From the NCBI GenBank assembly GCA_008373205.1, contig RQOS01000060.1, positions 47,936 through 111,935 of the forward strand: a stretch of DNA of 64,000 nt, in the 5' to 3' direction. Made by a program: the position numbers and the translations under genes. This document shows, in pieces, positions 18,328-21,758 of the stretch. How positions within the stretch are numbered: position 1 is the first letter of the stretch; each line of letters opens with the position of its first letter. The DNA is from SAR202 cluster bacterium (GTDB taxonomy: Bacteria; Chloroflexota; Dehalococcoidia; Lucifugimonadales; Lucifugimonadaceae). Under the pieces are notes generated by a model, which was not told the origin of the DNA, made no database searches, and saw only the letters and a program-made list of their open reading frames with translations.

Positions 18328-19218
18328 TTAATCATCCAGCATGCTACTTAATGATACGTCTAGAGAGTCGGCTATAGATTTCAAAGATCCTAATGAAACG
18401 TTTTGCTTTCCCTGCTCAACTGCACTTATGAAGGTTCTTGCAAGACCTGCTTTTTCTGATAGAGCATGTTGGCTTATATTTCTATTTTTCCTGACTGTCT
18501 GAATTTTATTTCCGAGCGATATGAGCACCGATTCCAAAGGTATCATCGCTGGATTGCTATCTACTAGAGAGTTAGCCAAATATGTTGCCTTGAGAGGGTC
18601 TTCTGCAAAGCCATCAATTAGCTTTTTGTCATCTTTTAAAGAAATTGCCCCAGGTCCTCCAACTAAAATTTTTATATTTTTTTCTAATGACCTGATATTA
18701 TGGATGGATTCAATCAACTTCTCCGTACTTTTGGGGTATGTTGATGAAAGCAATACAAAGTCAGGTAAAGATGATTTTATATACTTTAGCAAATCGTCAT
18801 TTGGTATCGAGCTTCCAAGCAGCTCAACATTCCAGCCATCCCAACGAAAAAAGTCTGCTGACATATAAGTGCCCATAACATGCTTATCGTCCTCAATAGC
18901 AGTTATTGAAATTTTAAGACCATTAGGCTGAGGAATTCTAAAATTATTTCGAACTCTATCCATCAATAATAAGCAGAATTGTGTTGCTCTGTGCTCTTCA
19001 GATATCAATATCTTCCCCTCATGCCAAAGATTTCCGATGTGATTAAGCGTATTTCTAATTAGATCAAGATATATTACTGCTGGCGACCATTGCTGATTAA
19101 TTATCATTCGTGAAATAATATTTGCTTGCTTATAGTGCCCATGAACCAATGAGTACTGAAGCTGATTTGCTACAGATTGTATTTCTTTCTTTGGAGGCAC
19201 ATACCAGTTTGAATTCAT
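18328..19218 (-). CDS. Putative B12-binding transcriptional regulator with C-terminal XRE helix-turn-helix
   Basis: A 296-residue protein of three parts. Residues about 10-95 resemble the four-helix cap of B12-binding modules and contain W65-x9-E75-H76, the motif that in CarH-type photoreceptors lines the upper face of adenosylcobalamin. Residues about 100-220 form a Rossmann-type cobalamin domain with D111-K-H113-V-M-G116 (the DxHxxG motif supplying the lower axial His), a serine loop (LLSSTYPKS) and KILVGGPG. Residues about 233-292 are a Cro/CI-type HTH (ISQHALSEKAGLARTFISAVEQGKQN in pieces: SQHALSEKAGLARTFISAVE). CarH and LitR instead carry an N-terminal MerR HTH. It diverges from the small-gene operon at 19342 and probably controls it, in a B12- or light-dependent way. 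That control is inferred. Confidence 0.8.
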   Translation of the reverse strand: MNSNWYVPPKKEIQSVANQLQYSLVHGHYKQANIISRMIINQQWSPAVIYLDLIRNTLNHIGNLWHEGKILISEEHRATQFCLLLMDRVRNNFRIPQPNGLKISITAIEDDKHVMGTYMSADFFRWDGWNVELLGSSIPNDDLLKYIKSSLPDFVLLSSTYPKSTEKLIESIHNIRSLEKNIKILVGGPGAISLKDDKKLIDGFAEDPLKATYLANSLVDSNPAMIPLESVLISLGNKIQTVRKNRNISQHALSEKAGLARTFISAVEQGKQNVSLGSLKSIADSLDVSLSSMLDD

Positions 19219-19247: not shown

Positions 19248-19263
19248 CTGTTTACTATAACAG
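19248..19263. promoter_or_regulatory. Operator-like dyad CTGTT-N6-AACAG between regulator and small-gene operon
   Basis: A 16-bp element with 5-bp inverted arms, CTGTT (19248-19252) and AACAG (19259-19263), lies in the 123-bp divergent promoter region. XRE/Cro-type repressors commonly bind palindromes of about this size. A second pair, ATGTTC (19238-19243) and GAACAT (19280-19285), flanks it symmetrically at a distance. Chance occurrence of 5-6 bp arms in AT-rich DNA is possible. Confidence 0.35.
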
Positions 19264-19341
19264 ACATATTAAATAATTGGAACATTATATATATCAATAA
19301 TGGCATTATATAAATATAAACATTTTTAAGAGGAGTGAGAA

Positions 19342-19500
19342 ATGACAATAATTTCAAAGACATGCCTCCATTGTTCTGGAGACTTGTATGTGCACACTGA
19401 CATAGATAATTTTAAGAGCTTAAAATGTATGCAGTGTTCAAGAGAATTTACAAAAGATAGCCTGAAACTAAAATCGAAGGACATGTCACATGCTGCATGA
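19342..19500 (+). CDS. Zinc-ribbon-type microprotein (52 aa), first gene of small-gene operon
   Basis: The frame starts at the ATG at 19342 behind a clear AGGAG (19331-19335). The protein has two CxxC knuckles, KTCLHCSGDL near the N-terminus and KCMQCSREF about 22 residues later, which predicts a rubredoxin-like or treble-clef zinc ribbon. No other domain fits in 52 residues. Its end overlaps the next gene by 11 nt, and a chain of further overlaps follows, so it is the head of a translationally coupled operon. Such a ribbon could bind nucleic acid, a metal or a partner protein; function unknown. Confidence 0.65.
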   Translation: MTIISKTCLHCSGDLYVHTDIDNFKSLKCMQCSREFTKDSLKLKSKDMSHAA

Positions 19501-19639
19501 AAATGAGTGTAGATTATGTGACTTGTCTCCAAGTGAACATATATATGACAAATCTATCTTTGGAATTTATCCAGGCTGCAAAATAGAAAATAATTTTTTT
19601 TCTAGCGCTATCAGTAAAATCAAAAGAATTTTCAAATGA
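19490..19639 (+). CDS. Cys-motif microprotein (49 aa), second gene of small-gene operon
   Basis: The ATG at 19490 lies within the end of the preceding gene, with AAGGA at 19477-19481 as ribosome-binding site. The peptide has NECRLCDLSPSEH near the N-terminus, a third Cys in FGIYPGCKIEN and a basic C-terminus (ISKIKRIFK). Three Cys and one His could bind a metal or be redox active. The stop overlaps the SDR start as ATGA. I do not recognise the family. The overlaps on both sides argue that it is translated. Confidence 0.6.
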   Translation: MLHENECRLCDLSPSEHIYDKSIFGIYPGCKIENNFFSSAISKIKRIFK

Positions 19640-20352
19640 ATTTAAATAGAAAAATAATAATCTTCGGAGCTAGTAGTGACATAGCCAAACCAATTATCAG
19701 TAAATTGTCAAAAGATAATGAATTGATTTGCATTAGCAGAAGCGAATTATTATATGAAAACACGAAAAATATAACATTAGAAAACTATAATGATAGTTTA
19801 ATAGACCTGATCTCTAACATGGAATTAGATAATGAAAAAGTTAGTGTTATAAACTTCATTGGCTCTATGATTTTGAAACCTCTGCATCTTCTGAAAGAAA
19901 ATGAAATGTTAGAAATTATGGATGTAAATTTTATGACTAATTATAGAATACTTTCCCAAATTCTAAAGAAAAATTTGTCTGACTTAAATTACATCGCTTT
20001 TTCCTCAGTTGCAGCAAACTATGGCTTAGCAAATCATGAAGCTATAGCATCAGCAAAGGCTGCTAATGAAGGTCTTATTAGATCATGTGCATCAAGCTAT
20101 GGGCACAAATCATACAAATTCAATTGTATAGCTCCAAGCTTAATCGAAACCAAACTTACAAGCAGAATAGTTGGAACTGAAGCAGGTAGAAAAGCTGTTG
20201 AGAATATGAACCCGCTCAAAAAAATTGGATCTCCAGAAGATTTATCAGAATGTATCACTTGGTTATTATCAGACAATTCAAATTTTGTAACAGGTCAAAC
20301 AATAAATATAGGAGGAGGCTTGAATAATATTAATTCAAGAATAGTGCAATGA
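19636..20352 (+). CDS. Short-chain dehydrogenase/reductase family protein lacking the catalytic Tyr
   Basis: A 238-residue Rossmann-fold SDR. The cofactor motif is IIFGASSDIAKPI at residues 8-20, VINFIGS stands in place of NNAG, the catalytic-site Ser is in AFSSVAANYG (123-124), and the C-terminus GQTINIGGG is typical of SDRs. In an ungapped alignment with FabG the YxxxK motif reads Ile137-A-S-A-Lys141, so the catalytic Tyr is replaced by Ile. It may therefore bind NAD(P) without normal reductase activity or use another acid/base. It overlaps its neighbours on both sides by 4 nt. Confidence 0.85.
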   Translation: MNLNRKIIIFGASSDIAKPIISKLSKDNELICISRSELLYENTKNITLENYNDSLIDLISNMELDNEKVSVINFIGSMILKPLHLLKENEMLEIMDVNFMTNYRILSQILKKNLSDLNYIAFSSVAANYGLANHEAIASAKAANEGLIRSCASSYGHKSYKFNCIAPSLIETKLTSRIVGTEAGRKAVENMNPLKKIGSPEDLSECITWLLSDNSNFVTGQTINIGGGLNNINSRIVQ

Positions 20353-20471
20353 ATAAGAAAATATATGAAGTTCCAAATCTAGATTATTCAATTAGAATTT
20401 CGGATGATAACAGTATCAATGAAGAGAACTATGAGTTTAATAAACTACTAGAAAGTCTTACAAGTTCATAA
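20349..20471 (+). CDS. 40-residue acidic microprotein, last gene of small-gene operon
   Basis: The start overlaps the SDR stop as ATGA (ATG at 20349) and the stop is TAA at 20469-20471. The peptide begins MNKKIYEVPNLDYSIRISDD and ends in a Ser/Leu-rich tail; it is acidic overall, has no Cys and no signal peptide. I recognise no family. Possible roles are a small regulator, a partner of the SDR or a peptide substrate. The start-stop overlap is the main evidence that it is a gene. Confidence 0.5.
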   Translation: MNKKIYEVPNLDYSIRISDDNSINEENYEFNKLLESLTSS

Positions 20472-20543: not shown

Positions 20544-21758
20544 ATGTACTTTTATTCTGATTTTTTAAATTTATATAAAGAAAAATTCTATTCTAAGTTT
20601 GCGGCTTCTTGTGCTTTAATTTATTCTATAAGATTTCTAGATTTTACTATAATTGCATGGTTGTTAACTAACATATCTGATAATCCTGCAAGTATTGGTG
20701 CACTTGTTTTTGTAAAGTTTATACCTATGATGTTTTCGGGTTTAATAACCGGCTGGCTAGTTGATAAATTTTCAAGATTAGCAATTATAAAATTTGTAAT
20801 TATTTCTCATAGTATTTATTTAATGTCATGGGCCTCTTATATGCTATTTTTTTCAGTAAACATAGAAGTTATTTTCCTTATGACTTTTATTTCGGGGATA
20901 TTGATGTCTATAGATATTTCATCTAGAATTTCATACTTATCCTCATTACTCAAGCGTAGGGTTATTAGGTCAGGGATAGCTGCAAATGTGATTTTCTTAA
21001 ATTTAGCTTGGTTTATAGGGCCAAATATAGGAATGTTTTTTCTTGAATTAAGTAGTTCTGCTATTCTTTATACATCCTTAAGTCTTATTAACATTTTAGG
21101 ACTATTATTCCTAAGAAAAATCCCAAGTCTGAATATATTAAAATATAAAAAAGAAACATACTCAGGCTTTATAGCAGGAATTAATTTTGCTAAGAAGAAA
21201 CCAATAATCTTAGGAACTCTATTAATTGTTGGTTTTGGTAATTTAACTGCTTTCACATTTGAATCTATGGGCCCATATTTTGCAAAATTTATATACGAAG
21301 CAAGTCCAAAAGAATTTTCATTCATGATTTCATGCCAAGGATTAGGTGCTTTAATTGGATCTATTTTTCTATTCCCTATGCTTGTCAAAATAACTAGACC
21401 AGGGTTTGTTTTTTTCATTGCAACTATTTTTCTTTGCACTGGTTCAATTATTTTTTCATACAGCACTTCATTTTTTATTGGCTGCATAATATTAATTATT
21501 TTAGGAGCTGGAACAACATTTTTCATGAATATGCACTCTAGAATTCTAATTACACAAACTCCAAATCCATTACGAGGAAGGGTTGGAGGACTACAACAAT
21601 TTGGGATAAGTTTATTTCCTATTGGTAGCTTAATTACAGGGCTTTTAGGTGATAGGCTTGGAGTTCCTGTAACTATAAGAATTATAGCGATTTTAGGGAT
21701 TCTATGTTTACTAGTTATATTTTTTCTATTTAGAGATTTAAAAAATATTATTGAATGA
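20544..21758 (+). CDS. MFS transporter (12 TM, MFS_3-like exporter)
   Basis: A 404-residue membrane protein with about 12 TM segments. It has the loop GWLVDKFSRLAIIK after TM2 and a motif-C-like region in TM5. The architecture resembles the MFS_3 carrier at 15449. It lies 72 nt downstream of the 40-residue microprotein on the same strand, with its own candidate promoter dyad, so it may or may not belong to the small-gene operon. If so, it could export a product or stress compound of that system. Substrate unknown. There is no Shine-Dalgarno. Confidence 0.82.
   Translation: MYFYSDFLNLYKEKFYSKFAASCALIYSIRFLDFTIIAWLLTNISDNPASIGALVFVKFIPMMFSGLITGWLVDKFSRLAIIKFVIISHSIYLMSWASYMLFFSVNIEVIFLMTFISGILMSIDISSRISYLSSLLKRRVIRSGIAANVIFLNLAWFIGPNIGMFFLELSSSAILYTSLSLINILGLLFLRKIPSLNILKYKKETYSGFIAGINFAKKKPIILGTLLIVGFGNLTAFTFESMGPYFAKFIYEASPKEFSFMISCQGLGALIGSIFLFPMLVKITRPGFVFFIATIFLCTGSIIFSYSTSFFIGCIILIILGAGTTFFMNMHSRILITQTPNPLRGRVGGLQQFGISLFPIGSLITGLLGDRLGVPVTIRIIAILGILCLLVIFFLFRDLKNIIE

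Follow-up and report, generated by a model that had tools for sequence, protein, structure and literature searches.

The described systems closest to the locus reported here are CarH and class I LitR, the AdoCbl-dependent light-sensing repressors. The light signature published for cobalamin sensors comprises the motifs GxxW, EH, GxxH and GxxxP, and it has been noted in general that an HTH can be fused at either end of light-responsive cobalamin domains (PMC11796333). LitR loci of Pseudomonas that are induced by light contain genes for a photolyase and a short-chain dehydrogenase (PMC9758184), and isolates of SAR202 are inhibited by light and have their heliorhodopsins near photolyase (PMC10444878). 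Among the papers searched, none dealt with SAR202 together with CarH.

The DNA analysed (hereafter, the window) is a stretch of 64,000 nucleotides from the 1.33 Mb draft genome of a member of the SAR202 (Dehalococcoidia) lineage, whose bacteria have small genomes and are abundant in the ocean. Four overlapping genes of 52, 49, 238 and 40 residues, here called g1, g2, SDR and g4, were located exactly where the initial annotation had placed them (Table 1), with overlaps of 11 nt (g1/g2), 4 nt (g2/SDR) and 4 nt (SDR/g4) and with ATGA at the last two junctions. That annotation had also assigned the expected start signal to each gene, which held for g1 (GAGGAG) and g2 (GAAGGA upstream), both with a clear Shine-Dalgarno sequence, but not for SDR and g4, as inspection of the sequence revealed no obvious Shine-Dalgarno at their starts within the ATGA junctions. 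These two starts probably rely on the overlaps for translational coupling.

Table 1. Features of the operon and its surroundings (window positions).
Feature	Position	Strand	Description	Evidence or remarks
Regulator	18328..19218	-	B12-binding_2 + B12-binding sensor, C-terminal HTH_3	CarH-like residues WHEGKILISEEH, DKHVMG
Operator-like block	19249..19266	+	TGTTTACTATAACAGACA; consensus TGnTnAsTATAwCAGACA	imperfect dyad; -35-like CAGACA at 19261-19266
Shine-Dalgarno of g1	19330..19335	+	GAGGAG	sequence
g1	19342..19500	+	52-aa four-Cys zinc-ribbon microprotein	kept in 7/7 carriers and G059; C8, C11, C29, C32 invariant; dN/dS
g2	19490..19639	+	49-aa microprotein, invariant C7-C10-H17-C30	found in genus only; dN/dS
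SDR-fold protein	19636..20352	+	238 aa; NHE[AL]I...K subfamily, Ile for catalytic Tyr	FabG-like fold model, pLDDT 88.9
g4	20349..20471	+	40-aa acidic peptide; invariant PNLDY, conserved C-terminal N(K/Q)LL..L	genus only; dN/dS
MFS transporter	20544..21758	+	neighbour, separable from unit	kept without operon in G005, decayed in G002

A comparison of gene order in other genomes, with short ORFs included, identified all four frames, in unchanged order, in seven of the nine genomes of the genus. These seven carriers all had orthologues of the regulator and the SDR and the complete order regulator, g1-g2-SDR-g4, the regulator being divergent, and the same MFS gene lay downstream in each. The loss of microprotein frames beside a retained SDR had been named as the observation that would speak against the gene set; instead, every genome with the SDR kept all three frames, and the two genomes without the SDR were also without all three. 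The 11-nt g1/g2 overlap was retained in six of the seven carriers, while the g2/SDR overlap was 4 or 10 nt and the SDR/g4 overlap 4 or 1 nt. In addition, purifying selection was apparent on all four frames, with dN/dS well below 1, although the NG86 estimates are rough for many distant pairs, whose synonymous sites are saturated. Between genomes G000 and G001, for example, g1 had eight nucleotide differences and no amino acid difference (omega 0.00), and omega was 0.15 for g2, 0.10 for the SDR and 0.05 for g4. The four-gene set is real, far beyond chance.

In the two non-carriers (G002 and G005), which are close sisters with 96% identity in the neighbouring transporter, the regulator, g1, g2, SDR and g4 were all missing together, and only about 100 bp separated the SBF transporter gene from the MFS gene. 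The MFS gene at this empty site was intact in G005 and reduced to fragments with stops in G002 (L276:6951-7248). Based on this joint absence, with the MFS gene left behind, we consider the five genes to be one evolutionary unit from which the MFS gene is separable. The product-like reading of the locus and its link to an MFS exporter are weak and found no support. It is very improbable that the genes form a small biosynthetic or RiPP-like cluster, with g4 as the precursor, g1 and g2 as carrier or accessory proteins, the SDR as a tailoring enzyme and the MFS protein as the exporter, even though a short peptide adjoins the SDR and an MFS gene follows in all carriers. No modifying enzyme family was seen at the locus, G005 keeps the MFS gene without the operon, g4 has no leader/core pattern and is most conserved in its N-terminal PNLDY, g1 scores below the LysW cut-off, and the SDR lacks the catalytic Tyr.

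The Cys knuckles ascribed to the first two microproteins were present, as CxxC...CxxC in g1 and as CxxC with a third Cys in g2. In g1, C8, C11, C29 and C32 as well as G13, D14 and S33-R34 were invariant through to G059, a SAR202 genome outside the seven carriers. In g2, the pattern C-x2-C-x6-H-x12-C was invariant, which refines the earlier description, as from sequence H17 would be a possible fourth ligand beside C7, C10 and C30. Scored against the ECs_2282 zinc-binding family (NF047912), g1 reached 29.8 bits, below the cut-off of 37, and the two-CxxC layout is common to both. A LysW-like carrier was rejected as an identity for g1 (11.9 bits versus a Pfam cut-off of 27). Zinc ribbons resembling g1 were also observed in tandem pairs in several family members (G026:C3:113814-114276; G035:C1:1118483-1118914; G424:C7:287325-287757).

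ORFs resembling g1 adjoined the window type of regulator in five more order- or family-level genomes (L009, L016, L019, L022 and L023), and an ORF of comparable score was found in none of 46 control loci, using a model that included the ORFs of those five genomes. The class-wide search for g1 was unspecific, 214 of the 393 genomes giving matches, and no B12 regulator or photolyase lay within ~1.5 kb of any of the 28 best g1-like loci outside the carriers (G002 included); for these reasons homology to g1 was not taken as evidence by itself. Outside the genus, g2 was not found in the 393 class genomes, the single weak match (in G403) having internal stops and being taken as chance. The structure prediction for g2 was set aside for its low confidence (pLDDT 61.4, pTM 0.34). 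The g4 peptide, with its invariant PNLDY, is unrelated, and outside the genus had weak partial matches only, inside longer frames.

Searches against PHROGs gave no match for g1, g2 or g4, those against PADLOC gave a marginal one for g1 only (E 0.002), and g2 had no match in phages and viral contigs. These results bear on the idea that the genes are a module for defence, of toxin-antitoxin type or derived from a phage, under a regulator of the Cro/C1 type. Such a module would suit the Cro/C1-type HTH and the small divergent genes, and the HTH of the regulator does match control-protein and phage-repressor models, but it is alone in doing so, and the block has been maintained vertically at one syntenic site. 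We regard this origin as extremely improbable.

The regulator had PF02607 and PF02310 domains above cut-off and a C-terminal HTH_3 at residues 239-291, the latter being its DNA-binding domain in place of an N-terminal MerR domain. Its score against the CarH family (NF052513) was 56.5 bits, with a cut-off of 400, and membership of that family was ruled out by the absent MerR domain. In its cobalamin sensor, the regulator is by sequence CarH-like. It has W-H-x8-EH (WHEGKILISEEH), that is, W-x9-EH with a His after the Trp, which are the light-sensor residues of CarH, and the lower-ligand His motif D/E-x-H-x2-G is present as DKHVMG. Of the first 22 loci examined at genus and order level, 19 had W-x9-EH in some form, and PDB CarH chains matched the regulator weakly but significantly (5c8a, E 3e-7). 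By inspection, three of the four elements of the published light signature were seen in the window regulator (GNLW, EH and GSSIP), and the GxxH position reads DDKH, compared to GxTH-type sequences in G019 and G059. The earlier description of an operon divergent from a B12 regulator was upheld, with the light-sensor residues as an addition.

The main rival to a response to light is that the regulator responds to B12 status, or to some other signal linked to corrinoids, and that the operon adjusts metabolism to the supply of cobalamin. Among the matches of the B12-binding domains are also corrinoid proteins and MetH, and AdoCbl supply in these small genomes is uncertain; methylmalonyl-CoA mutase was not found in the genus. 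We nevertheless judge this rival unlikely, based on the retention of the Trp, His and Glu-His residues that are tied to light sensing in CarH, and on the related loci being rich in genes for photolyase and heliorhodopsin, not in genes for B12 enzymes.

The gap between the regulator and g1 was 112-123 bp long and contained TGnTnAsTATAwCAGACA in all seven carriers. The flanks of this 18-bp block form an imperfect dyad, changing together in several genomes (TGTT/AACA versus TGAT/ATCA), and the block overlaps the -35-like hexamer of the operon, CAGACA. Across the nine genomes, copies with 0-1 mismatches were restricted to this gap (both G006 contigs counted) and one site in G008. The latter (L278:2459-2476) had a score like those of the true sites and preceded a gene for an MMPL-type transporter by 65 bp; in G000 and G004, photolyase is followed by a similar MMPL gene. 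No strong operator site was found near photolyase genes, and no TGNN-N6-NNCA dyad upstream of other SAR202 regulators, where the operator was unrecognisable.

The SDR has a Rossmann SDR fold (PF13561, E 6e-29), and its model (pLDDT 88.9) was closest among solved structures to FabG (TM ~0.8). The YxxxK active site was absent, the corresponding residues being I137...K141 with the Lys kept, and TGxxxGxG was degenerate (GASSDIA). New invariants of the subfamily were KP[AL]H and NHE. A conserved-peptide scan of genomes returned 544 related stretches, and the best 80 loci came from many phyla. Ile occupied the Tyr position in 61 of the 67 SDRs aligned from these 80 loci, the few Tyr cases being paralogous SDRs; as the scan used NHE and KP[AL]H peptides, it favours such sequences, and the Tyr-to-Ile state is partly selected. 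N133-H134-E135, I137, K141, K81-P82 and H84 were invariant in an alignment of 45 sequences chosen by an NHE-I-K filter. A tblastn search of plasmids returned ordinary SDRs only (<30% identity). It is very unlikely that the SDR is an ordinary, active housekeeping or catabolic dehydrogenase and the microproteins are incidental short frames. The fold, the retained active-site Lys and the abundance of SDRs in SAR202 would fit, but the near-uniform Ile, with Tyr confined to paralogues, does not, nor does the purifying selection acting on microproteins that, within the genus, occur only together with this SDR.

Loci of this NHE[AL]I...K subfamily (L155-L234) are spread across bacteria and often lie near photolyase or FAD amine-oxidase genes. 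A photolyase or photolyase-related gene was present in 25 of the 57 Tyr-less SDR loci outside the genus, within two ORFs in 14, where chance would give ~1 of 57 for PF03441, an estimate from about 1-1.5 matches per Mb with no matched control. These photolyase counts used DPRP and PHRb only, as the PHRa model covers amine-oxidase as well as photolyase sequences; a photolyase-type or FAD amine-oxidase gene was present in 33 of the 57. Within SAR202, the same type of regulator in G059 faces g1, a DICT protein, photolyase, DUF2867 and an SDR orthologue, and in G019, a family-level relative, such regulators are beside photolyase, DUF2867 and heliorhodopsin (PF18761, E 1e-95). At one such G019 locus (L075:9766-17432), a B12-HTH_3 regulator is near photolyase, DUF2867/NmrA and heliorhodopsin genes, and a B12 photoreceptor may control heliorhodopsin in that lineage. 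Photolyase is absent from the window operon, and that of G000 is on another contig. In the genus, photolyase was found in six of seven carriers and neither of two non-carriers, a co-occurrence drawn from few, incomplete genomes in which the sister non-carriers count as one event.

Together, these data lead us to favour, as the probable though far from certain explanation, a light-responsive (light-derepressed) photoprotection operon of SAR202. This reading draws on the CarH residues and CarH structure match of the regulator, the conserved block over the -35-like hexamer, the G059 and G019 neighbourhoods, photolyase near Tyr-less SDRs and in the carriers, the presence and absence of the unit as a whole, the light inhibition of SAR202 isolates (PMC10444878) and the Pseudomonas LitR loci with photolyase and SDR (PMC9758184). 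We counted against it the operon being without photolyase, the genus being without methylmalonyl-CoA mutase (AdoCbl supply), the D for G of GxxH, the unrecognisable operator at other SAR202 regulators, the few incomplete genomes behind the photolyase co-occurrence, and most class-wide g1-like matches being away from such regulators. The earlier suggestion of a regulated, stress-response system agrees with the CarH residues and with the photolyase and B12-regulator neighbourhoods of the SDR subfamily and g1 relatives elsewhere.

We infer the following sequence of events. In the dark, the B12-HTH_3 protein, with AdoCbl bound, would sit on the 18-bp block across the -35 element and keep g1-g2-SDR-g4 repressed; in the light, breakage of the Co-C bond of the cofactor would release the repressor and derepress the operon. 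Translational coupling would then yield the four proteins in fixed proportion. At the centre would be the SDR without its Tyr, which may bind a nucleotide cofactor for a step related to photodamage or serve as a partner without catalysis; g1 with its zinc ribbon, g2 of the CCHC type and the g4 peptide may be the small proteins that work with it. A bolder proposal, which we advance with considerable doubt, is that the four coupled proteins form one stoichiometric complex, in which two zinc microproteins and a peptide hold the Tyr-less SDR, as a previously undescribed light-induced device for photoprotection or damage sensing under a B12 photoreceptor whose DNA-binding domain is of the Cro/C1 type.

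This locus and the related ones suggest that SAR202, whose cultured members are inhibited by light (PMC10444878), has an unusually built B12-based photoreceptor, which in one SAR202 genome is associated with genes for photolyase and heliorhodopsin. The operon is probably part of how light-sensitive SAR202 cells cope with sunlight. The locus also brought out a bacteria-wide, Tyr-less SDR subfamily whose genes often lie near those for photolyases. Its three microproteins are strongly conserved and would probably be overlooked by an annotation that filters by length.

Compared to known systems, the window regulator shares with CarH and class I LitR the four-helix cap and B12-binding domain, W-H-x8-EH, the lower-ligand His motif and divergence from its putative target genes, and differs in having a C-terminal HTH_3, where CarH has an N-terminal MerR domain, and in the D for G of GxxH. 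The SDR shares with classical SDRs and FabG (PF13561, PF00106) the Rossmann fold, the active-site Lys and its best structure matches, and differs in the Ile for the catalytic Tyr, in GASSDIA and in the invariants KP[AL]H and NHE. The g1 protein has the two-CxxC layout of the ECs_2282 family putative zinc-binding protein (NF047912), with a score below the family cut-off. The Pseudomonas LitR/PplR photolyase cluster (phrB, the SDR PME6630, an FAD oxidoreductase and ufaM; PMC9758184) likewise combines a light-type regulator with an SDR, and Tyr-less SDR loci elsewhere also have photolyase and FAD amine-oxidase genes; PME6630 is likened to the window SDR at the level of short-chain dehydrogenases. 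In the window organism, unlike that cluster, photolyase is elsewhere in the genome and three microproteins are added. The LitR/CarH arrangement with photolyase in the same cluster was seen in G059, not in the window operon. On balance, the best reading is that the operon derives from a LitR/CarH-photolyase neighbourhood, with a different DNA-binding domain and new accessory microproteins.
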